Shown: piece after piece, positions 24,371 through 43,566 of the stretch
Layout: each line of letters opens with the position of its first letter
How positions within the stretch are numbered: position 1 is the first letter of the stretch
Assembly: GCA_016938685.1 (NCBI GenBank)
Contig: JAFGUD010000240.1
Coordinates: 1-64,000, forward strand
Direction: 5' to 3'
Length of the DNA: 64,000 bases
Source of the DNA: Bacteroidales bacterium
GTDB taxonomy: Bacteria > Bacteroidota > Bacteroidia > Bacteroidales > JAFGUD01
Notes under the pieces: generated by a model
Databases searched by the model: none
Seen by the model: the letters and a program-made list of their open reading frames with translations, nothing else
Told to the model about the DNA's origin: nothing
Position numbers and translations under genes: made by a program

Positions 24371-27300
24371 ATGAACAGAAATAAGGTCTTTAGATTCCTG
24401 ATTTTTATACTTACTACTTTTTTGGTAAGCAATAATATTTATGCGCAAAATAATTCGCCGGATTCAACCGATTTACCGTATCCTTATCACTATTTTGATA
24501 ATCCATTGCTAAACAACAGATATAATTCTCCGCTGTATATGCAAACTCCTTCTGTTTATCAACAAGATATTCAGTACGATCCAATTACCGGAAATTTTGT
24601 GATAGTTGAAAAAGTTGGAAATATAGTTGTTACTCGTCCTTATGTGATGTCTTTTGACGACTACAATACATACAGAACCAACTCAATAATGCAAAATAAC
24701 TGGCGCACTAACTTAAAAACCGGAAACAGAACAGACGAAAATGATTTTTTAAGCAATTTTTTAAGCCCTCAAATAAATCTTGGTCTAAAAGGAATTGACA
24801 AAATTTTTGGAAGTGACCAAATTACTGTTCAGCCTAACGGAAATGTTGATATTACATTGGGCATTTCTTATTATAATCAAAACAATCCAACATTATCCAA
24901 AAGGCAACGCCGTCAAACTATTTTTGATTTTACACAAGATATTCAACTTGGAGTAAACGGAAAAGTTGGTGATAAAATGAACGTAGGTATAAACTACAAC
25001 ACAAAAGCTCTTTTTGATTTTGAAAACAGAAAAAAAATTGACTATACAGGAGAAGAAGACGAAATAATTCAGAAAATAGAAGCCGGAGATGTTACATTTC
25101 CTCTGGAGAACACTTTAATTCAAGGAAGTAACACTCTTTTCGGAATACGAACCGATTTAAAATTCGGAAAATTTACCGTAACGAGCGTTTTTTCTCACCA
25201 AAGAGGCGAATCTAAAACAATTGAAGTACAAGGTGGAGCAGTTTTAAATGATTTTGAAATTTCTGCCAGTGAATACGAATCCGACAAGCACTTTTTCCTT
25301 TCGCATTATTTCAGAGATCATTACGAAGAAGCAATGGCTAATTTGCCAATAATAACAAGTCCTGTGAAAATAACTAGGATAGAAGTTTGGGTTACAAATA
25401 AAACTTCAGATTTTGAAAATGCAAGAAACATTGTTGCTTTTATGGACTTAGGAGAAAGTAATGGAAATATTTATGCAACAGCTTTGTTTAATCAAAATGG
25501 TGCACAACAATATCCAAGTAACAACACAAACACTTTGTATGAAATGATGACCACTACTTACAGTGGGATAAGAAATATTTCTGCAGCTTCAAATATTCTT
25601 ACAGGCATTTCAGGGTTTTCAGAAGGAGTTGATTTTGTAAAACTTGAAAGTGCTAGAAAATTAAATTCAAACGAATATTCTGTAAATACCGAGTTAGGTT
25701 TTATTTCAATCAATTATCAACTTCGCTCCGGCGAAATTTTAGCAGTTGCATACGAATATACAATTGATGGAAAAACTTATCAGGTCGGAGAATTTTCAAA
25801 TGATATAGAAGCGCCACAAACACTTATCTTAAAACTTTTGCGTGGACCGGCTGCTATACCTACTCTACCAACCTGGGATTTGATGATGAAAAATATTTAC
25901 AGCCTAAATACTTATTCTCTTTCACCGGAAGATTTTCAACTTGAAGTATATTACAACAACGACAGAACAGGAACAGCAATCAACTACATTCCCGAAGGAG
26001 AAATAGCCAATCAACGTCTTTTAAAAGTATTAAATCTTGATAATGCAGACAATCAAGGCAATGCAAATCCCGATGGCTTTTTTGATTTTATGGAAGGAGT
26101 AACAGTTATTTCACAAAAAGGATCTATTATTTTTCCTGAACTTGAACCTTTTGGAAATTATTTAAAAGATCAAATTGGCAATAATCAAATTGCTCAAAAA
26201 TACATTTTCACCGATTTGTATGACTCCACTCAATATATTGCTCAACAAAACGCCGTTAAAAATAAATTTTACTTGAGAGGTCGATATAAATCTTCCGGAG
26301 GTAGTCAAATTATGTTAAATGTAATGAACGTACCTCAAGGTTCTGTAAAAGTCACACAAGGAGGGCAAGAACTGAATGAAGGAACAGATTACACCGTTGA
26401 TTACAACATTGGAAGCGTAACAATATTAAATGAGTCTTTGCTTAACTCAGGAATGCCGATTAAAATTTCGTTGGAAAGCAATGACATGTTTGGAATGACA
26501 ACAAAAAGTCTTTTAGGCTCCCATTTTAACTACCAGTTTAATGAAAAATTTAATATTGGAGGAACAGTAGTACATTTGTCAGAATTGCCAGTTGATGTAA
26601 AAACAAGGTTTGGAACAGAACCAATTTCAAACACAATATACGGATTTAACACAAATTACTCCCGAGAAGTTCCTTTTTTAACACAAATGGTTGATTTTCT
26701 GCCTTTTATTGAAACAAAAGCACCTTCTAACTTCAATTTTACAGGAGAATTTGCCCAACTCATTCCGGGAAATCCAAGAGTTTTAGACAAAGAAGGAATT
26801 TCTTTTCTTGACGATTTTGAAGACAGTCAAACTGATATTGACTTAAAAGCTCCAAATGCATGGGTTTTAGCTAGTATTCCGCAAGGACAATCATTATTTC
26901 CCGAAGCAAAAGAAAACGCGACAACAATATCTGGATACAACAGAGCAAAACTTTCATGGTATGATATTAATGAAGATTTAGTTGCAATAAATAGCACAAC
27001 CAGACCCGACTACATCTCAGTAGATGATGTTTCTAACCACTTAGTCAGACTTGTTTACGAAAAAGAGATTTTTCCTAACAAACAAAATTACGGGAACACT
27101 CCAACAAGAATGACTGTACTTAATTTAGCATATTATCCCGAAGAACGAGGTCCATATAATTTTGATACCGAAGGAGAACCTGGAATTTCAGAAGGTATTA
27201 ATGAAAGCGGAGATCTTAACGCACCGGAAACCAGATGGGCTGGAATAATGAGAGATTTATATATCAACGATTTTGAAAGTTCAAATATTGGTTTTCTGGA

Positions 27301-30300
27301 ATTTTGGCTATTAGACCCCTTTATTTATGATTCTTTATCAACAGGAGGCGATTTGTATGTTAATTTAGGTGATATTTCAGAAGATATTCTAAAAGACTCT
27401 CGAAAAAGTGTCGAAAACGGAATTCCTTATCCATCTGACCCAACAAAAATTGACACAACTCAATGGGGTATTGTCTCAAAAATTCAGGTAACCACTCGAA
27501 ATTTCGACAATAATCCTGATGCTAGAGCAATACAAGATGCCGGTTATGACGGAATTCTAGATGACGCTGAAAAATCATTTTTTAATAATTATTTGCAAAA
27601 ATTGGCTCAAATGTACGGAGTTAACTCATCTGTTTACCAGAAAGCCCTACAAGATCCTAGTAACGATAATTTCAAATATTTTATTGATGAAGAATATGAC
27701 AATTTAAATGCTGATATCTTAGAACGCTACAAAGCATATAATGGCACACAAGGAAATTCTCCTACAAATACAGGAAATCAAAACTTCACATCAGTTTCTC
27801 AATTTCCTGATATTGAAGATGTTAACTCCGATAATACTCTTGATCTTTATGAAGCTTATTATCAATACAGAATACATTTAGAACCGGGGCAAATGAATGT
27901 TGGAGAAAACTATATCGTAAACAAAGTAGACGCCACAGTTCCAGCTTTACCAAACAAAGACAACACACAACATGTTACTTGGTATCAGTTTAAAATACCT
28001 ATAAAATCTCCCGATCAAATAATAGGAACCGTTCAGGGCTTTAAATCAATAAGGTTTATCAGATTATTCATGACTAATTTTGAATCCCCTATTGTCTTAC
28101 GTTTTGCCAAGATGAATCTTATTAAAGAAGAATGGAGACAATACGAAAACACCATTACTGAAGGAGGAGAAATTACTCCAACACCGGAACCCGAAGGAAA
28201 TGGGACACTTGATATTTCTGTTGTAAATATTGAAGAAAGCACTCAAAAAGAACCAGTAAACTATATTTTACCTCCGGGAGTAACCAGAGAACAAGACTTT
28301 TTTGACCAACAAGCAAGAAAATTGAACGAACAGGCTATGACAATGAAAGTTGTTAATTTACCCGACGGAGAAGCAAAAGGAGTATACAAAAATCTTGACA
28401 TTGATTTAAGAAAATTCAATAAGTTAAAAATGTTTGTTCATGCAGAAGCGTTAATTGACGAAGAACAATCCCTAAATGACGGTGACCTAAATATTTTTGT
28501 TCGTTTAGGTTCGGATTTCACCAATAATTATTACGAATATGAAATTCCGTTAAAAAAGACTCCTGCTGGTTCATATTCATCTACAGATGAAGATATTGAA
28601 GCTCCCGCAAGATATGTTGTATGGCCTTCTGAAAATGAAATGGATTTGTCGCTAGCACTCCTTCTGGAAGCTAAACAAATGCGTAATGAGGCAATGAGTC
28701 AAATAAACTCTAACGTGTCTCTAAACACACCATATTGGGTTTATGACGGTGAAAATAAAATAACTGTAATTGGAAATCCTAATCTTGCTAATGTTAAATC
28801 AATAATGATTGGTATTCGTAACCCGAAACAAGAAAATAATCTAAATAATGACGACGGACTTATTAAATCTGCAGAAATTTGGGTGAACGAACTTAGACTA
28901 ACGGACTTTAACTCAGACGGAGGTTGGGCCGCAAATGCCAGAGTATCTGCAAACTTTGCTGATTTTGCAAATGTAACACTTTCCGGTTATACACATACAC
29001 CGGGATTTGGAAGTGTTGAAAAAAGAGTGAACGAAAGATACGAAGATCAGGCTTTGGAATACGATTTAACAACTCAGGTTCAATTTGGTAAGTTTTTCCC
29101 GAAAGAATACGGCGTTTCAATTCCTTTGTATATGGGACTTGCAAGAAGCATTTCAAATCCTGAATACAACCCATTTGATCCTGATATAAAATTTAATGAC
29201 GCTCTTTCGACATTAACTGATGATGAAAAAAGTTCGCTAAAAAATGCAGCTCAAACTTATACTCAACGAAGAAGTTTCAACTTAACAAATATTAGCATTC
29301 AGGGAAAACCTAAAAAAAATGTTAAAGGAGATGTTGGAAATAGAGTAAACAAAAAAAGTGGAAATAAAACTAAAATTACTCCTCCATGGAAAATTTCAAA
29401 TTTTTCTGCGTCTATTGCTTTTAATGAAACTTATAGCAGAACTCCGATAATTGAGTTTCATAAACAACAAAATTTCATGCAAAGTTTTAACTACAACTAT
29501 TCTCCAAACCCTAAAGTTGTAAAACCTTTCAAAAAAGTTAAGTTTCTAAATCACAAAGCATTAAGATTAATCAAAGATTTTAACTTTTATTATTTACCAA
29601 CTCGTGTTAGTTTCACTTCGGAAGTAAACAGACAATACATTACTTTTAAGAACAGAGAAATAAGTGATGCAGATATTAATTTACCAACATCATATCAAAA
29701 GAACTTTTTATGGGCAAGAAATTACGACGTAACATATAAGTTAAGCAATTCTTTACGACTTGATTTTACTGCAACAAACTCATCAAGGGTAGAACCTGAT
29801 GGTTGGAACGAAACTTTATTCCAAAAATGGGGAGTAAGACATCCTTCAGATACTGTTTTATTAAACATTTATGATTTGGGCAGAAACACAGATTATAACC
29901 AACAAGTAAGGGTAAATTACCGAGTGCCGATTGACAAAATACCATTATTAGGTTGGACATCACTTACAGCAGACTACAATACAGATTATGACTGGCGAAG
30001 AGGACAAGACCCATATACAATAGAAGCAACAGACACAACAGACGCGCATATTGTTGATTTTGGAAACGCAATTCAGAATGCAGCTACATTAAGGCTAAAT
30101 GGTCGTTTAGATTTTATTAAACTATACAACAGCGCAAAATATTTGAAAAAAGTAAATTCCAGATTCACAAAAAATGGAAGAACTCCTGTCAAAAGAGAAG
30201 ACAAAGACGTAAGTTTTACTTCTGAAATCAGATTAAAAAAAGGTGTGCCGGTATACATCACACACAATATGAAAACCGAAAACATCACAAAATTTGAAGT

Positions 30301-31858
30301 CAAGACACAGGACGGAAAACCAATAAAATCAGAAAATTACGAAATAGTAAACGCAAACAGAATAAAATTCACGCCGGATACAACACTCAACAACGTTAAA
30401 CTTGTAATTCAAGGTAAAAAGCAAATGAATGAAAATATTTTTATCATTGCTTCTGATTACACATTAAAAACAATGATGATGCTTCAAGGAGTTTCTATTA
30501 ACTACAAAAAAGCAGGCGGAACACTTATTAATGGCTATCGACCAAATGCAATTTTATTTGGAAGTCAAAAAGTTAACAATGAACTTGCCCCAGGCTGGGA
30601 ATTTATTACAGGTTTGCAAGACAGATTAATAGTTGATGAATTTGCTCAACGCAATTGGCTAACGGAGGATACCCTTTTCAATTTGCCTGTAAATTTCACA
30701 GAATCAGATGAAATAAGAGTAAGAGTAAATGTTGAACCAATCAATAATCTTAAAATTGATTTTAATTTTCAAAGAAACATTACTCTTAACGAATCCATCT
30801 ATGGTTACACTGAAAATGGAAGCTTTACAGAACAAACAAAAATGAAAGACGGAAACTTCTTCATTTCGTTCAATACAATACTTTCAGCTTTTGACAATAT
30901 TGATTCAAGTGCCAATTTTTATTCAAAGTATTATGAAAACTTTTTAAACGGAAGACAAGATATTGCTTATGAATTGGCAAGACAAAGAAGCGAAGCAGCT
31001 GTTGGCTACGTTTTTGACACTTATGTTGACACTCTTGGACACAGATATCCTGTTGGTTACAGTCATACTTCGCAAGACGTGCTTTTATTGTCATTTTTAT
31101 CTGCTTATTCAGGTATTTCTGTAGATAAATTAGGATTTAATCCGTTTTTAGCAATTCCACTACCCGACTGGAGATTAACTTTTGACGGTTTATCAAATTT
31201 ACCGTTTGTAAAAAATTACGTCAAAAAAATCAGCTTAACTCATGCTTATTCTTCAACTTATGGTGTCAATAATTTCAATTCAAATCCCAATTACAATTTC
31301 TATATGTACGACGAATTAGGCACCAGTGATGCGATGTATGAAACGAACGGTTTATTTATTCCTCAATATGAAATCAGCGGAATAATGATAAGTGAAAAAT
31401 TCACACCATTCTTTGGCTTAGATATTACTTGGATGGGACCATTAAGCACTAGATTTGAATACAAAAGAGCCAGAGATTTATTCTTAAGTTTCAGTAATAA
31501 TCAAGTAAGGGAAAGACATAACAACTCGTTTACTTTTGGTGGAGGCTACACTTTTAAGGAATTAAAAATGACAATAAATGTTGGAGGCAAACCTCAAAAA
31601 TTAAACAGCGACTTAAATTTAAGACTTGACTTTACCAAAGGACATGATATTGAAATTTACAGAAAAATAGTAGAGAATATTTCTCAGGAAAATACCGAAA
31701 GAGATAATTTTAGTCTAACTTTTACTGCAGATTATTCAATCAATGACAAATTAAGCATACAATATTACTATAATCATTCTGTAATGGAAACAAATACAAA
31801 TTACAGAACAACCAATGTTCAGACCGGTTTCAAAATAAGATTTGCATTAACACCATAA
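24371..31858 (+). CDS. sprA: T9SS translocon / gliding protein SprA (Sov)
   Basis: At 2495 residues this is the size expected for SprA, the 36-strand barrel that forms the T9SS outer-membrane channel. A signal peptide covers residues 1-25 (ending IYAQ). Family-typical stretches include NFLSPQINLGLKGIDKIFGS, SNTLFGIRTDLKFGKFTVT, FLDDFEDSQTDIDLKAPNAW near the middle, RWAGIMRDLYINDFE, and a C-terminal half of repeated amphipathic strands. The sequence is complete, with no frameshift or large deletion. It follows ruvA by 95 nt. Together with gldH and the SprE/PorW-like gene it shows that this organism exports proteins by T9SS. Confidence 0.95.
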   Translation: MNRNKVFRFLIFILTTFLVSNNIYAQNNSPDSTDLPYPYHYFDNPLLNNRYNSPLYMQTPSVYQQDIQYDPITGNFVIVEKVGNIVVTRPYVMSFDDYNTYRTNSIMQNNWRTNLKTGNRTDENDFLSNFLSPQINLGLKGIDKIFGSDQITVQPNGNVDITLGISYYNQNNPTLSKRQRRQTIFDFTQDIQLGVNGKVGDKMNVGINYNTKALFDFENRKKIDYTGEEDEIIQKIEAGDVTFPLENTLIQGSNTLFGIRTDLKFGKFTVTSVFSHQRGESKTIEVQGGAVLNDFEISASEYESDKHFFLSHYFRDHYEEAMANLPIITSPVKITRIEVWVTNKTSDFENARNIVAFMDLGESNGNIYATALFNQNGAQQYPSNNTNTLYEMMTTTYSGIRNISAASNILTGISGFSEGVDFVKLESARKLNSNEYSVNTELGFISINYQLRSGEILAVAYEYTIDGKTYQVGEFSNDIEAPQTLILKLLRGPAAIPTLPTWDLMMKNIYSLNTYSLSPEDFQLEVYYNNDRTGTAINYIPEGEIANQRLLKVLNLDNADNQGNANPDGFFDFMEGVTVISQKGSIIFPELEPFGNYLKDQIGNNQIAQKYIFTDLYDSTQYIAQQNAVKNKFYLRGRYKSSGGSQIMLNVMNVPQGSVKVTQGGQELNEGTDYTVDYNIGSVTILNESLLNSGMPIKISLESNDMFGMTTKSLLGSHFNYQFNEKFNIGGTVVHLSELPVDVKTRFGTEPISNTIYGFNTNYSREVPFLTQMVDFLPFIETKAPSNFNFTGEFAQLIPGNPRVLDKEGISFLDDFEDSQTDIDLKAPNAWVLASIPQGQSLFPEAKENATTISGYNRAKLSWYDINEDLVAINSTTRPDYISVDDVSNHLVRLVYEKEIFPNKQNYGNTPTRMTVLNLAYYPEERGPYNFDTEGEPGISEGINESGDLNAPETRWAGIMRDLYINDFESSNIGFLEFWLLDPFIYDSLSTGGDLYVNLGDISEDILKDSRKSVENGIPYPSDPTKIDTTQWGIVSKIQVTTRNFDNNPDARAIQDAGYDGILDDAEKSFFNNYLQKLAQMYGVNSSVYQKALQDPSNDNFKYFIDEEYDNLNADILERYKAYNGTQGNSPTNTGNQNFTSVSQFPDIEDVNSDNTLDLYEAYYQYRIHLEPGQMNVGENYIVNKVDATVPALPNKDNTQHVTWYQFKIPIKSPDQIIGTVQGFKSIRFIRLFMTNFESPIVLRFAKMNLIKEEWRQYENTITEGGEITPTPEPEGNGTLDISVVNIEESTQKEPVNYILPPGVTREQDFFDQQARKLNEQAMTMKVVNLPDGEAKGVYKNLDIDLRKFNKLKMFVHAEALIDEEQSLNDGDLNIFVRLGSDFTNNYYEYEIPLKKTPAGSYSSTDEDIEAPARYVVWPSENEMDLSLALLLEAKQMRNEAMSQINSNVSLNTPYWVYDGENKITVIGNPNLANVKSIMIGIRNPKQENNLNNDDGLIKSAEIWVNELRLTDFNSDGGWAANARVSANFADFANVTLSGYTHTPGFGSVEKRVNERYEDQALEYDLTTQVQFGKFFPKEYGVSIPLYMGLARSISNPEYNPFDPDIKFNDALSTLTDDEKSSLKNAAQTYTQRRSFNLTNISIQGKPKKNVKGDVGNRVNKKSGNKTKITPPWKISNFSASIAFNETYSRTPIIEFHKQQNFMQSFNYNYSPNPKVVKPFKKVKFLNHKALRLIKDFNFYYLPTRVSFTSEVNRQYITFKNREISDADINLPTSYQKNFLWARNYDVTYKLSNSLRLDFTATNSSRVEPDGWNETLFQKWGVRHPSDTVLLNIYDLGRNTDYNQQVRVNYRVPIDKIPLLGWTSLTADYNTDYDWRRGQDPYTIEATDTTDAHIVDFGNAIQNAATLRLNGRLDFIKLYNSAKYLKKVNSRFTKNGRTPVKREDKDVSFTSEIRLKKGVPVYITHNMKTENITKFEVKTQDGKPIKSENYEIVNANRIKFTPDTTLNNVKLVIQGKKQMNENIFIIASDYTLKTMMMLQGVSINYKKAGGTLINGYRPNAILFGSQKVNNELAPGWEFITGLQDRLIVDEFAQRNWLTEDTLFNLPVNFTESDEIRVRVNVEPINNLKIDFNFQRNITLNESIYGYTENGSFTEQTKMKDGNFFISFNTILSAFDNIDSSANFYSKYYENFLNGRQDIAYELARQRSEAAVGYVFDTYVDTLGHRYPVGYSHTSQDVLLLSFLSAYSGISVDKLGFNPFLAIPLPDWRLTFDGLSNLPFVKNYVKKISLTHAYSSTYGVNNFNSNPNYNFYMYDELGTSDAMYETNGLFIPQYEISGIMISEKFTPFFGLDITWMGPLSTRFEYKRARDLFLSFSNNQVRERHNNSFTFGGGYTFKELKMTINVGGKPQKLNSDLNLRLDFTKGHDIEIYRKIVENISQENTERDNFSLTFTADYSINDKLSIQYYYNHSVMETNTNYRTTNVQTGFKIRFALTP

Positions 31859-38726: not shown

Positions 38727-38750
38727 AAAAAGGCTTTATAAGCCTTTTTT
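38726..38750. terminator. Bidirectional terminator after the YigZ gene
   Basis: Arms AAAAAAGGCTT (38726-38736) and AAGCCTTTTTT (38740-38750) flank a 3-nt loop; it serves the two converging genes. Confidence 0.8.
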
Positions 38751-39636
38751 ATTTAGACAAAATATCTATAATTTTTTCAACAGCAGAAGGCTGAAAAACA
38801 GCATCGTAAGCAATAATATCAACTAGTTTTTGTTCAAATATTTTTTCAGAATTCTCGATACAAATAATCTCATCATATTCTTTTAAATCGTCCATAAAAA
38901 CAAATAATTTATATTGAGAATTTTCCTTTAAGTCAGAATAAACATCAATATCAAAAGTTGAAGTACCAACAGCAATTAAATTAATATTCTCGTAAGGCTT
39001 AACTTTTTCAATATCAGTTAACCAAGACATCAAATCAGGATTTTCAATTGAAAGAATAACCTCCATCGATTTATCTCTCTTAGCTAAAATAGAGTTTAAA
39101 GAATCAAAAGCAGCTATAATACTTTGTTCATTTTGCATTTTATGAAAAATAATCAAATCTACTCTTCCTGCTAAAAGAGCTTTAATCTGCTCAGAATAAA
39201 TACTCTGAACAAAATCCAAATCCAAATCATTTGGCAAACTGGATACGCAACCGGCAGCATATCGAGGTTTATTTCTGGTAATTGAAGAATATTTAGAAAC
39301 TTTATCTCTGGCTATTTTAGCACTTGCAAGGTTTAATTCATAAGTAATATCTTCTAATCCAAATTCTTTTAAGTGAAAACGATTAGCTTTTGAAGTATTT
39401 GTAACAATAATATCAGCTCCGGATTTTAGAAATCTTTCATCAATTTCGCTAATTACCTGGGGCTTAGTTAACGACAGAATATCATCAAACCCAAGTAAAG
39501 TATGATCTAATTTTGCAAATCTTTCTCCTTTGTAATCTCTCTCTTTTAGAGAATATTTCTTAATAATTTGTTCTTTGCTGCCAATCATTACTAAAACAGA
39601 TGACTCTAATGTTTCTGTTATATTTTTCTTCATCAC
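38749..39636 (-). CDS. MetH N-terminal-like (homocysteine methyltransferase fold) protein lacking zinc ligands
   Basis: The 295-residue protein follows the N-terminal (homocysteine-binding) module of methionine synthase: YKGERFAKLDHTLLGFDDIL, LTKPQVISEIDERFLKSGAD, IIVTNTSKANRFHLKEFGLE, ITYELNLASAKIARDK, YAAGCVSSLPND and EQIKALLAGRVDLIIFHKM. However, the first Gly-rich motif (DGAMGT type) reads VMIGSKEQ. The Cys in the GxNC position is missing (IAVGTSTF), and the GGCCGT motif that carries two zinc Cys is replaced by AYDAVFQPS. All three zinc ligands therefore appear lost. I infer a stable fold without homocysteine methyltransferase activity. Length matches the single domain and the frame is open, so it is not an obvious pseudogene. 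Confidence 0.75.
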   Translation of the reverse strand: MMKKNITETLESSVLVMIGSKEQIIKKYSLKERDYKGERFAKLDHTLLGFDDILSLTKPQVISEIDERFLKSGADIIVTNTSKANRFHLKEFGLEDITYELNLASAKIARDKVSKYSSITRNKPRYAAGCVSSLPNDLDLDFVQSIYSEQIKALLAGRVDLIIFHKMQNEQSIIAAFDSLNSILAKRDKSMEVILSIENPDLMSWLTDIEKVKPYENINLIAVGTSTFDIDVYSDLKENSQYKLFVFMDDLKEYDEIICIENSEKIFEQKLVDIIAYDAVFQPSAVEKIIDILSK

Positions 39637-39689
39637 TTATATTTTGAAATGTAAAACAATCTTTTCATTAAGTACAAAAATTTTGCCAT

Positions 39690-39717
39690 AAAAAATAAAA
39701 ACCCTCTAAAAAGAGGG
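39690..39717 (-). terminator. Terminator of asnS
   Basis: On the minus strand CCCTCT (39712-39717) and AGAGGG (39702-39707) form a short GC stem, followed by a T-rich tail (complement of 39685-39701). It lies 8 nt after the asnS stop. Confidence 0.7.
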
Positions 39718-39724
39718 CTTAATA

Positions 39725-41248
39725 TTATGGATTCAATCTGCCATACATTCTTGGGAATGGAATTGTTTCACGAATATGTTTTGTGTTTGTTATCCAACCA
39801 ACAAACCTTTCCAAACCAAGTCCAAAACCTGAATGAGGAACAGAACCATATTTTCGCAGGTCTAAATACCAATCAAATACTTCTTCCGGTAAATTATGTC
39901 CATGAATTCTATCCAATAAAACTTCCAAATCAGTTTCTCTTTCGCTACCTCCTACTATTTCACCAAAACCTTCGGGAGCAAGCACATCAACACCTTTTAC
40001 TAAGTTATCATTATCTTCAGCTCTTTTCATGTAGAAAGCTTTAATATCTTTAGGCCAGTTATAAACCATAATAGGCAACGAAAACATTCGTGTTAAAACA
40101 GTTTCATCTGCTCCACCAAAATCATTTCCATATTTAAAATTTTTGGCACTGTTAAGATATTCAGGAATATGAGATAATTTTTCTTCCAAGTCTTTTAACT
40201 CATTTTTAAAAGTGTCTATTTTATTCTGAACAAAGTTTTTCTTTCCTTGTTTAATATTTGGATCTTCGAGTATTTCTTCTCTTTCGGCAATTTCTTTTTT
40301 AACAATAACAATTTTCTCTTCAAGTTCTTTTTTATCTTTATTCAACAAATCAATTGAAGTAATACCGTTAACTTCTTTTCTTCCATTAAGAATTTCTACA
40401 GCTTCATCATAAGAAATTCTAGGGAATTTTTCAGAAACAACTTTTCCTAAAATATCAAAATCTCTGTCAAGCACTTCCAGTTCAAGTTTGCATCTTTCGG
40501 TAACTTCTTTAACAACAGATTTTATAAATTCTTCGATTAAATCCATATTCATTTCGTTATCGAAAAAAGCCATTTCAGGTTCAATCATCCAAAACTCAGA
40601 TAAATGACGACGAGTTTTAGATTTTTCGGCTCTAAAAGTAGGTCCAAAAGTATAAATTCTGCCCATTGCCATAGCCATTGCTTCGCCATATAATTGACCA
40701 GATTGAGTTAAATATGCAGGACGATCGTAAAAATCAGTTTCAAACAAAGTAGTTGTTCCTTCAACAGCATTTCCGGTAAAAATAGGAGCATCCATCTGCA
40801 TAAAACCTTGTTTTTGGAAAAAATTATGGATTCCGTAAATAATGCTATTTCTAACACGCATTATTGCCCATTGTTTTTTGGAACGCAACCATAAATGACG
40901 ATTATTCATTAGAAATTCAACACCATGAGCTTTATTTGTAATTGGAAAATTATTATCATTTAGATGGATTAAATTCAAATTAGTAACATGTAGTTCGCTA
41001 CCGCCAATTTGACGATCATCTTTTACTACTTTACCTGTTAACTCAACTGAACTTTCCTGAGTCAACTTACGAGCTGTTTCATACATTTCAGCCCCAATTT
41101 TTTCCTCATCAACAATACATTGCACAAAACCGGTACCATCTCTAAGTATAAGAAATTCAATACCTTTACTGCTTCGTTTGTTGATTACCCATCCCTTAAG
41201 AGTAACATCTTTTCCGTGATGAGATTTTAAATCAGAAATGTAAACCAT
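39725..41248 (-). CDS. asnS: Asparaginyl-tRNA synthetase, atypical type with insertion
   Basis: The 507-residue class II synthetase has an OB-fold anticodon domain (LKGWVINKRSSKGIEFLILRD) and motif 2/3 regions FGPTFRAEKSKTRRHLSEFW and GFGLGLERFVGWI. The ending HIRETIPFPRMYGRLNP resembles the Bacillus/Thermus-like AsnS subclass more than the 466-residue enterobacterial type, whose end reads PRTPRNASF. An extra charged, coiled-coil-like segment (about residues 295-360, KDKKELEEKIVIVKKE and onward) makes it about 70 residues longer than usual. It charges tRNA-Asn. The aspartate-specific sister family is less likely, because FGEIVGGSERE is an AsnS-type stretch. Confidence 0.92.
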   Translation of the reverse strand: MVYISDLKSHHGKDVTLKGWVINKRSSKGIEFLILRDGTGFVQCIVDEEKIGAEMYETARKLTQESSVELTGKVVKDDRQIGGSELHVTNLNLIHLNDNNFPITNKAHGVEFLMNNRHLWLRSKKQWAIMRVRNSIIYGIHNFFQKQGFMQMDAPIFTGNAVEGTTTLFETDFYDRPAYLTQSGQLYGEAMAMAMGRIYTFGPTFRAEKSKTRRHLSEFWMIEPEMAFFDNEMNMDLIEEFIKSVVKEVTERCKLELEVLDRDFDILGKVVSEKFPRISYDEAVEILNGRKEVNGITSIDLLNKDKKELEEKIVIVKKEIAEREEILEDPNIKQGKKNFVQNKIDTFKNELKDLEEKLSHIPEYLNSAKNFKYGNDFGGADETVLTRMFSLPIMVYNWPKDIKAFYMKRAEDNDNLVKGVDVLAPEGFGEIVGGSERETDLEVLLDRIHGHNLPEEVFDWYLDLRKYGSVPHSGFGLGLERFVGWITNTKHIRETIPFPRMYGRLNP

Positions 41249-41343: not shown

Positions 41344-43566
41344 ATGCTAAAATTTTTTCTATCAATCATTTTACTAGTTACATGCTTTTGTGAAATATCA
41401 GCTCAATATTTCCAAAACTATGAAAAAGTTTATAGAAATTTTTCAGACAGTATAAGCTGGCAAAAAATTTATTTACACACAGACAAAAACAATTATTCCT
41501 CAAATGAAACAATTTGGCACAAAGCCTATTTATTTGATTCAAAGAATAATTACCTTGACTCAACAAAACAAATAATTTATATAGAACTTATAAGTCCCGA
41601 AGAAAAAATAGTTTACGCAAAACAATACCTTTGTGGAAATGGAACAACATACGGGAAAATATTTATCCCCGATTCTCTTTTATCAGGCAAATACCAACTA
41701 AGAGCTTTCACTGAAAACATGAAAAATTTCTCGTCTTTATTCTACTTCTGCAAAACAATTTCAATAGAAACAAAAAACAAACTATACAAAAATGAATACC
41801 GAATAAAAGACAAATCGCAAAAGAAAAAACAAAATCAAATTTTTTGCGACATGAGTTATTCTTCTCAAAATTTAGTAGCTGGTATCGACAACAAAATTAT
41901 TTTTAATTGTTTTGATTATATGGGAAATCAGCTAGATTGTAACGCAAGAATAATTTCAAATAAAAGGAAACATTTATATGAGTTATACCCTATAAACGAC
42001 AATTTTGTAGAACTTAAACCTATTGAAAATGAAAAGCTCAAAATAGTATTTACTTCAAATAATTATAAAAAAAGAAGAATAAAATTAAATAAAGCCGAAA
42101 ATTCAGGAATCTCAATTAACACAAATCAACAAAAAGAATCCTTGACAATAAATTTCATTTCAAACTACCCAAAAACAAAAGACACTCTCAGCAGGACTTA
42201 TTATATTATTGTTGAAAAAAACGGAAAAATATATTCCAAAAAAGAAGCAGAAGTTTTTGAAAAAGAACAACTTTCAATAGATAACAAAGAACTTCCAAAA
42301 GGAATTAGTCGATTAGTCATTTTCAATAAAAATTATGAAAAGATTTTCGAACAACAAATCTATATTGAGCCTAAAAAACCAGATTTCATTGTAGAAACAA
42401 GTAGAATAAATGACACCCTGAACGTTCACATAAAAATTACAAAATCAAATTTTGCTAACATTTCCATTTCTCTAACTAAAGACACTTCAAAGAACACAAA
42501 CATTTTTGATTATTACTATTTCTTTTCAGGCATCATATCAACGTCATTAAATAGATTTATAAACACAAACACAGAACAGAAACAAAATTTAATAATAACA
42601 GAAACAAAGTTTAAGTACTCTGCTGATTATGAAGACCTTTTAAACACGAACTATAAAAAACACAAAGAAAAAACTGGAGTAACAATTTCAGGAAGAGTAA
42701 GCAATATATTAGAAAAGGTTCCTGCAAAAAATGCAAGTTTAAGCCTTACAATATTAAATTCATACAATGATGTTTTTTACACCACAACAGATGAAAACGG
42801 TTTTTTTAAATTTGAAAACCTTATTTATCCTGACAGTATAGAGTTTTTAATTGAGGCTCAAACACAACAGGGGAAAAAACATGTTGTTATTTTTCTTGAT
42901 AATTATGACACATCTGACATCTATTTTAATGAAAATCAAAATGAAATAAAAAAATTTAAACTTAAAAAAAGTCAAGAAAAAAAAGTCAAGAAAAGAACTA
43001 CAATACATTCAAACGCAGACCAAATAATTTATTTTGATGAAATCAACACTGCTTCGACATCTAATCCACTAGAAGTACTGCAAGGAAGAGTACCCGGTTA
43101 TGACACGCAGGGAGAAAGTTCTTTATTGAGGGGATTTACGTCGATAACACAATCAAATGAACCTCTGTATCTTATTGATGATATTCCGACAAATGCTTCT
43201 GCTGTTTCAAATTTGAACATAGATGACATCGACAGAATAGAAATTATCAAAAATGCGAGTTATTCAGCAATATATGGTCAAAGAGGCTCCAATGGAATAA
43301 TTGCAGTATATACAAAACAGGGATACAACATAATTTGGGGTAAAATATATTCCAAAACAGCAGGTATTTCACAAAAAATATTTTTTGAAAAAGACACTAC
43401 AAAATCGCTGAATAAAACAGTATTTTGGAATCCAGAGATTAAAATTAACACCAAAGACACAATTATTAAAATACCACTTAATAAAATTGACAGTAATTTC
43501 GTTTTAAACATTCAAGGTGTTGATAACTACGGTTTCCCCTTATTTTCAACCAATTATATTAAATAA
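41344..43566 (+). CDS. Exported MG2-like / TonB-plug protein without barrel
   Basis: The 740-residue protein has a signal peptide (residues 1-20). An MG2/alpha-2-macroglobulin-like N-terminal domain follows (KIYLHTDKNNYSSNETIWHKAY, then LLSGKYQLRAFTENM), and further beta domains lead to a carboxypeptidase-regulatory-like domain (GVTISGRVSN with FYTTTDENGFFKFENL). The TonB-receptor plug is then clear: NPLEVLQGRVPGYD, then EPLYLIDDIPTN and IDRIEIIKNASYSAIYGQRG. After the plug only about 80 residues remain, far too few for a 22-strand barrel. It is therefore probably a periplasmic or surface accessory protein rather than a transporter; similar barrel-less proteins are known in Bacteroidota. Confidence 0.82.
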   Translation: MLKFFLSIILLVTCFCEISAQYFQNYEKVYRNFSDSISWQKIYLHTDKNNYSSNETIWHKAYLFDSKNNYLDSTKQIIYIELISPEEKIVYAKQYLCGNGTTYGKIFIPDSLLSGKYQLRAFTENMKNFSSLFYFCKTISIETKNKLYKNEYRIKDKSQKKKQNQIFCDMSYSSQNLVAGIDNKIIFNCFDYMGNQLDCNARIISNKRKHLYELYPINDNFVELKPIENEKLKIVFTSNNYKKRRIKLNKAENSGISINTNQQKESLTINFISNYPKTKDTLSRTYYIIVEKNGKIYSKKEAEVFEKEQLSIDNKELPKGISRLVIFNKNYEKIFEQQIYIEPKKPDFIVETSRINDTLNVHIKITKSNFANISISLTKDTSKNTNIFDYYYFFSGIISTSLNRFINTNTEQKQNLIITETKFKYSADYEDLLNTNYKKHKEKTGVTISGRVSNILEKVPAKNASLSLTILNSYNDVFYTTTDENGFFKFENLIYPDSIEFLIEAQTQQGKKHVVIFLDNYDTSDIYFNENQNEIKKFKLKKSQEKKVKKRTTIHSNADQIIYFDEINTASTSNPLEVLQGRVPGYDTQGESSLLRGFTSITQSNEPLYLIDDIPTNASAVSNLNIDDIDRIEIIKNASYSAIYGQRGSNGIIAVYTKQGYNIIWGKIYSKTAGISQKIFFEKDTTKSLNKTVFWNPEIKINTKDTIIKIPLNKIDSNFVLNIQGVDNYGFPLFSTNYIK

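Follow-up and report, generated by a model that had tools for sequence, protein, structure and literature searches.

Genomic context of the barrel gene

The window analysed here, a stretch of 64 kb (64,000 nucleotides) from a Bacteroidales genome (G000), carries a gene for a stand-alone barrel of the MetH homocysteine-binding type that lacks the zinc ligands. Orthologues of it were found in G001, G002 and G046; G000, G001 and G002 are referred to below as the genus trio. The gene comprises 295 codons from the listed GTG at 39636, or encodes 294 aa from an ATG at 39633, one codon further in, and since the orthologues begin at the latter position, ATG 39633 is likely to be the true start. Residues of the window protein are numbered with the GTG counted as 1. 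The coordinates of all features are listed in Table 1.

The barrel gene lies directly downstream of asnS in six genomes (G000, G001, G002, G046, G249 and G322), and this neighbour is absent beside it in G156 and in both genomes of family f70 (G174 and G071). A terminator-like hairpin separates asnS from the barrel gene in the window and makes cotranscription there improbable, so that the window barrel gene is probably not transcribed together with asnS. A chance open reading frame was ruled out by the Pfam match, the orthologues and the selection analysis. Elsewhere in the window, genes for SprA and for a protein with a TonB plug domain were observed.

Table 1. Positions of the features described in this study, in the window unless a locus or contig is given
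Feature	Position	Strand	Evidence or remark
Stand-alone MetH-type homocysteine barrel without zinc ligands	38749..39636	-	Orthologues in G001, G002, G046
Site of GGCCG zinc motif, reads AYDAV (residues 276-280)	38797..38811	-	Alignments
Site of GxNC zinc motif, reads GTST (residues 224-227)	38956..38967	-	Alignments; the last residues may be shifted by 1-2
Site of MetH DGAMGT, reads IGSKEQ (residues 18-23)	39568..39585	-	Alignments
Conserved upstream element GGCAAAATTTTTGT, GG-N10-GY	39674..39687	-	Sigma54 -24/-12-like, or imperfect inverted repeat
Terminator-like hairpin (CCCTC TTTTTA GAGGG) and T-run, after asnS	39690..39720	-	Read directly from the sequence
asnS, asparaginyl-tRNA synthetase	39725..41248	-	Pfam: class II synthetase, OB fold
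SprA, 2495 aa, gliding/type 9 secretion component	24371-31858	+	PF14349
740-aa protein, TonB plug domain near its end	41344-43566	+	No receptor barrel match in Pfam
Upstream element in relatives	L004:1460-1473; L005:2213-2226; L116:1453-1466; L119:2424-2437
Barrel genes of family f45	L116:1498-2445; L117:1498-2445; L119:1438-2391
Contigs of relatives	G001 JAFGXO010000222.1; G002 DYKL01000002.1; G046 WFZV01000074.1
Separate homocysteine barrel of G043, ~350 aa	L026:1102-2148		Beside surE

Family assignment and loss of the catalytic motifs

The window protein belongs to the homocysteine S-methyltransferase superfamily, with a PF02574 match of 85.4 bits against a cut-off of 22 (E 8e-24, residues 41-224), and its residues 3-197 are matched by the NCBIfam MetH models TIGR02082 (E 4e-31) and NF007024 (E 3e-34). 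It is not a full-length MetH, scoring 107.7 bits against the TIGR02082 equivalog cut-off of 1010.85 at a length of 295 aa. A first-pass annotation, made by reading the sequence, had reported that the Cys of GxNC, the double Cys of GGCCG and the first Gly-rich motif were gone, and the alignments bear this out (Table 1); the three zinc Cys of GxNC and GGCC are absent from all four zinc-less proteins described below. On the reading given there no substitute Cys or His ligands were to be expected, and in the alignment of the genus trio no Cys or His was conserved in all three members. The only column with Cys or His in two of them is a MetH-conserved His, which is Asp in the window protein, and an alternative Cys/His zinc site was therefore ruled out.

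In functional enzymes homocysteine is contacted by the Asp of DGAMGT, the Glu of ETIFD and the Asn of PNAG. The window protein lacks these contacts, with I18 in place of the Asp, H165 in place of the Glu and the PNAG motif gone; ETNTF has also become VTNTS, with loss of its Glu. The G046 barrel retains the DGAMGT Asp and the ETIFD Glu. We infer that the window protein binds neither zinc nor homocysteine and makes no methionine. Ligand sensing had been proposed for it, and the sensing of homocysteine is unlikely, because the homocysteine contacts have been lost as well as the zinc.

Among 103 columns conserved in at least 93% of 61 MetH barrels, 24 are kept by all three species of the genus and 54 are lost by all three. 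The kept columns lie mostly in the N-terminal half (for example D75, T79, N102, A109, R125, G129, Q150, L154 and D160), and the barrels of G000 and G002 share 58% identity in this half vs 34% in the strongly diverged C-terminal half, where all zinc ligands had been located. The earlier statement that the scaffold motifs are well kept thus holds for the N-terminal half and not for the C-terminal one.

Distribution and phylogeny of the stand-alone barrels

Searches that covered 60 relatives and, at the level of the order, 393 genomes identified eight further stand-alone barrels like the window protein, namely two in the window genus (G001 and G002), four in family f45 (G046, G249, G322 and G156) and two in family f70 (G174 and G071). 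One such barrel is present in every genome searched of three small Bacteroidales families (3/3, 4/4 and 2/2). A strict search at E 1e-85 of 395 class genomes, which overlap the 393 order genomes, yielded no additional member. A contig profile scan with the single window protein gave no match; with a 4-row alignment the same three orthologues ranked on top, and the other matches examined were MetHs.

The nine stand-alone barrels lie together on one side of a single branch (support 100/100) in a maximum-likelihood tree of 29 rows, and the loop that joins strand 3 to helix 3 (the SPDVNDPGYR region of MetH) is deleted in all nine; the window protein shares both features. The zinc Cys triad is retained in five of the nine (G249, G322, G156, G174 and G071) and is missing entirely from the other four (G046 and the genus trio), the zinc-less form being found in all three species of the window genus. 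G046 groups with G249, G322 and G156 (100/99), the genus trio is separate (100/99), and a 74-row tree recovers the same groups. Constraining the four zinc-less proteins to one clade was 12.6 log units worse and was rejected (AU p 0.027), and long-branch attraction would favour precisely that rejected tree. The neighbouring asnS also places G046 with G249 and G322 (83-84% identity, vs 70% to G000). These comparisons indicate that the zinc site was lost independently at least twice, once in the window genus and once in G046. The question whether the zinc-free form is a conserved clade therefore has a divided answer: it is conserved across species and does not descend from a single loss. Since the strand 3 loop deletion is common to all nine proteins, the loss of the loop most simply came before that of the zinc.

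Among the MetHs listed, the full MetH at L007 (G038:C171) has the barrel closest to the stand-alone clade, with 336 bits against the stand-alone profile vs at most 302 for the others, hinting at where the stand-alone duplication may have arisen. G043 encodes a separate homocysteine barrel with zinc motifs and MetH loop intact (L026), which groups with ordinary MetHs outside the stand-alone clade; no MetH remainder was seen within the 3.6 kb read. The Chlorobiota contig JAUVIX010000037.1 (L044) carries, besides MetH, a second and very divergent homocysteine-barrel frame of 621 codons, perhaps of the bifunctional HMT/MTHFR type.

Methionine metabolism of the host genomes

The window genome contains one other PF02574 protein, a normal MetH of 1240 aa with NC and GGCC intact on contig C175, where MTHFR lies a few kilobases away. 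With a full MetH, which the first-pass annotation had proposed to look for, and MTHFR at hand, the window barrel is not needed as a methionine synthase. MetH is present in all three genus members and in both f70 members. In all four f45 genomes, which are drafts of 75-96% completeness, MetH, MetE (PF01717), MTHFR and B12-binding_2 were consistently not detected, and PF01717 had no match in ten genomes. The sole PF02574 protein of the f45 genomes is the stand-alone barrel, which contains the zinc motifs in three of them and is zinc-less in G046. The zinc-intact members, as they keep the NC and CC motifs, are presumably still homocysteine methyltransferases, and the pattern in f45 suggests that active members there may take the methyl group from a donor that is not methyl-folate, or that methionine is salvaged.

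Selection and evolutionary rate

For the genus trio a codon model gave an omega of 0.028 (2dlnL 265 against omega = 1), with 0.021 in the N-terminal half and 0.070 in the C-terminal half (2dlnL 45 for the latter); as synonymous sites are saturated these values are rough, and the rejection of neutrality weighs more than the values themselves. The reading frame is open in all nine genomes, and a frameshifted or broken copy was ruled out, in line with the expectation that relatives would carry no frameshifts. In 500 runs of neutral drift to the observed DNA distance, about 18 stops arose and never fewer than 8; none was observed. Purifying selection acts on the zinc-less barrels and is most intense in the N-terminal half. 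At the same time the barrel protein changes rapidly: G000 and G002 are 48% identical in it, far below the 83% for the adjacent asnS and the 85% for the MetH barrel of the genome.

Predicted structure

AlphaFold2, run with a 20-row alignment whose MetH rows may have aided prediction of the fold, gave a complete (beta/alpha)8 barrel for the window protein (pLDDT 92, pTM 0.91), with strands at 15-18, 76-78, 126-132, 161-167, 191-197, 218-225, 243-248 and 274-277. The best PDB matches in Foldseek were human (TM 0.87) and Thermus MetH, followed by T. maritima MetH, MmuM and BHMT. A full barrel was also predicted (pLDDT 88.5) for the G046 protein, zinc-less by a separate loss. On this evidence the barrel was retained and the catalytic face lost. 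The conserved residues T79, N80 and N85 lie at strand ends on the catalytic side and could form a remaining ligand site.

A conserved element upstream of the gene

The element GGCAAANNNTTTGY (GGCAAAN3TTTGY) occurs 36-54 bases before the start in five of the nine members (the genus trio, G249 and G156) and has a single exact match in the 64 kb window. When the nine upstream regions were shuffled, the expected count was 0.003 against the five observed, a figure that is optimistic because the motif was first noticed in those same regions. The sequence flanking the element differs between members, and the element is kept in G156 despite the lost asnS neighbour; it is not present upstream of the G046 gene, and a looser TCGGCAYARTTATTGAA precedes the two f70 genes. 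The sigma54 consensus is TGGCACN5TTGCT (PMC12316311), from which the G001 element (TGGCAA-N5-TTGCT) differs by one mismatch and the others by more. The element fits the GG-N10-GC spacing and RpoN was found in all ten genomes; a sigma54 promoter and an inverted-repeat operator appear equally possible. No riboswitch was found upstream at the Rfam gathering thresholds (window, L001, L116 and L118).

Comparison with known systems

The window protein resembles the N-terminal homocysteine barrel of MetH (the PF02574 part of TIGR02082) in fold, N-terminal motifs and phylogenetic origin. Unlike MetH, it stands alone at 294 aa, without folate, cobalamin and activation domains, and, unlike the MetH barrel, it has no zinc ligands, homocysteine contacts or strand 3 loop. 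MmuM and BHMT are likewise single-domain, stand-alone homocysteine-type barrels; however, they retain the zinc Cys triad, and the window sequence is much closer to MetH. The zinc-intact barrels of f45 (G249, G322 and G156) and f70 (G174 and G071) share its clade, similar length and loop deletion, and differ from it in retaining the NC and CC motifs; the asnS neighbour is common to the window gene, G249 and G322, and the upstream element to the window gene, G249 and G156. The core methionine synthases MesA-D are small zinc enzymes, and among their relatives MesB-like proteins of Chloroflexales and MesC of MSBL-1 have lost zinc residues (PMC7857596); the zinc-less relatives of these MetE-type core synthases are suspected of other functions (PMC7857596). 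They parallel the window protein but are MetE-type and belong to a different family, and in the literature searched this analogy was the only one found, with no published zinc-less or stand-alone MetH-type barrel.

Possible roles of the zinc-less barrels

The same loss at least twice in one small group points to a role other than making methionine, and the protein probably does something else. The earlier idea of selection for a role other than methyl transfer to homocysteine is supported by the analysis. We incline, without great confidence, to a pseudoenzyme reading, in which the window gene encodes a homocysteine-methyltransferase barrel that is catalytically dead and is kept for a non-catalytic task, probably the binding of a protein or regulation. 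The data show that in a small Bacteroidales group the N-terminal barrel of MetH exists as a stand-alone copy, which forms one clade without the strand 3 loop, and that the complete zinc site was lost twice while the frame stayed open under purifying selection. Less surely, the selected function may now be a binding surface for another protein, formed by the N-terminal half (strands 1-4 and helices), and transcription may start from a conserved promoter of the gene itself, perhaps of the sigma54 type, and not together with asnS. The weak conservation of the C-terminal half and the fast evolution of the protein count against this reading, as does the conservation of T79, N80 and N85 on the catalytic side. 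As a more tentative extension, the stand-alone barrels may have carried out an additional, non-catalytic job at a time when they were still active. A role of this kind, present already in the zinc-containing ancestors, would explain two parallel losses of the zinc/homocysteine site in a gene that was kept, and a methionine-synthase barrel would then have turned into a pseudoenzyme in nature more than once.

The main rival, which we consider unlikely, is that the pocket was rebuilt for binding or chemistry of a different small molecule through residues such as T79, N80, N85 and, in the genus, an acidic residue. The confidently predicted barrel would suit this, as would the invariance of T79, N80, N85, E100 and R110 in all nine stand-alone members and the D, D and E found in the genus trio at position 278, where the first Cys of GGCCG stood. 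However, MetHs too keep several of the invariant residues almost unchanged, and their role may be structural; in the C-terminal half the loops of the catalytic face are shortened and poorly conserved, and no new motif on that face is common to both zinc-less lineages. Given the selection test, it is less likely still that a redundant stand-alone enzyme is drifting slowly towards decay and is not yet broken. The high rate, the C-terminal divergence, the twofold loss of the site and the small clade are what such relaxation would leave, but the frame is open in nine of nine genomes, omega is well below 1 in both halves, the genus trio has preserved the upstream element throughout, and the site was lost in G046 even though no MetH that would make the barrel redundant was detected there. 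Structural partnership with MetH, also raised by the first-pass annotation, here in the sense of a subunit, either accessory or decoy, for the MetH of the same cell, seems very improbable. The homology to the MetH N-terminal barrel and the presence of MetH throughout the genus and f70 speak for it; however, all four f45 genomes carry the gene without detectable MetH, MetE, MTHFR or B12-binding_2, and the MetH strand 3 loop is missing from every stand-alone barrel. As zinc-less G046 is among these genomes, partnership with MetH is not a general role.

Under routine annotation the window protein would be labelled a homocysteine S-methyltransferase, and a genome could be assigned a methionine synthesis that it lacks; G046, whose only such protein is zinc-less, is the clear case. 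Sister lineages contain both active-looking and inactive members, in one instance inside a single genus (G046 vs G249, G322 and G156), and together they form a small system in which to study the role of a methionine-synthase barrel that is no longer an enzyme.
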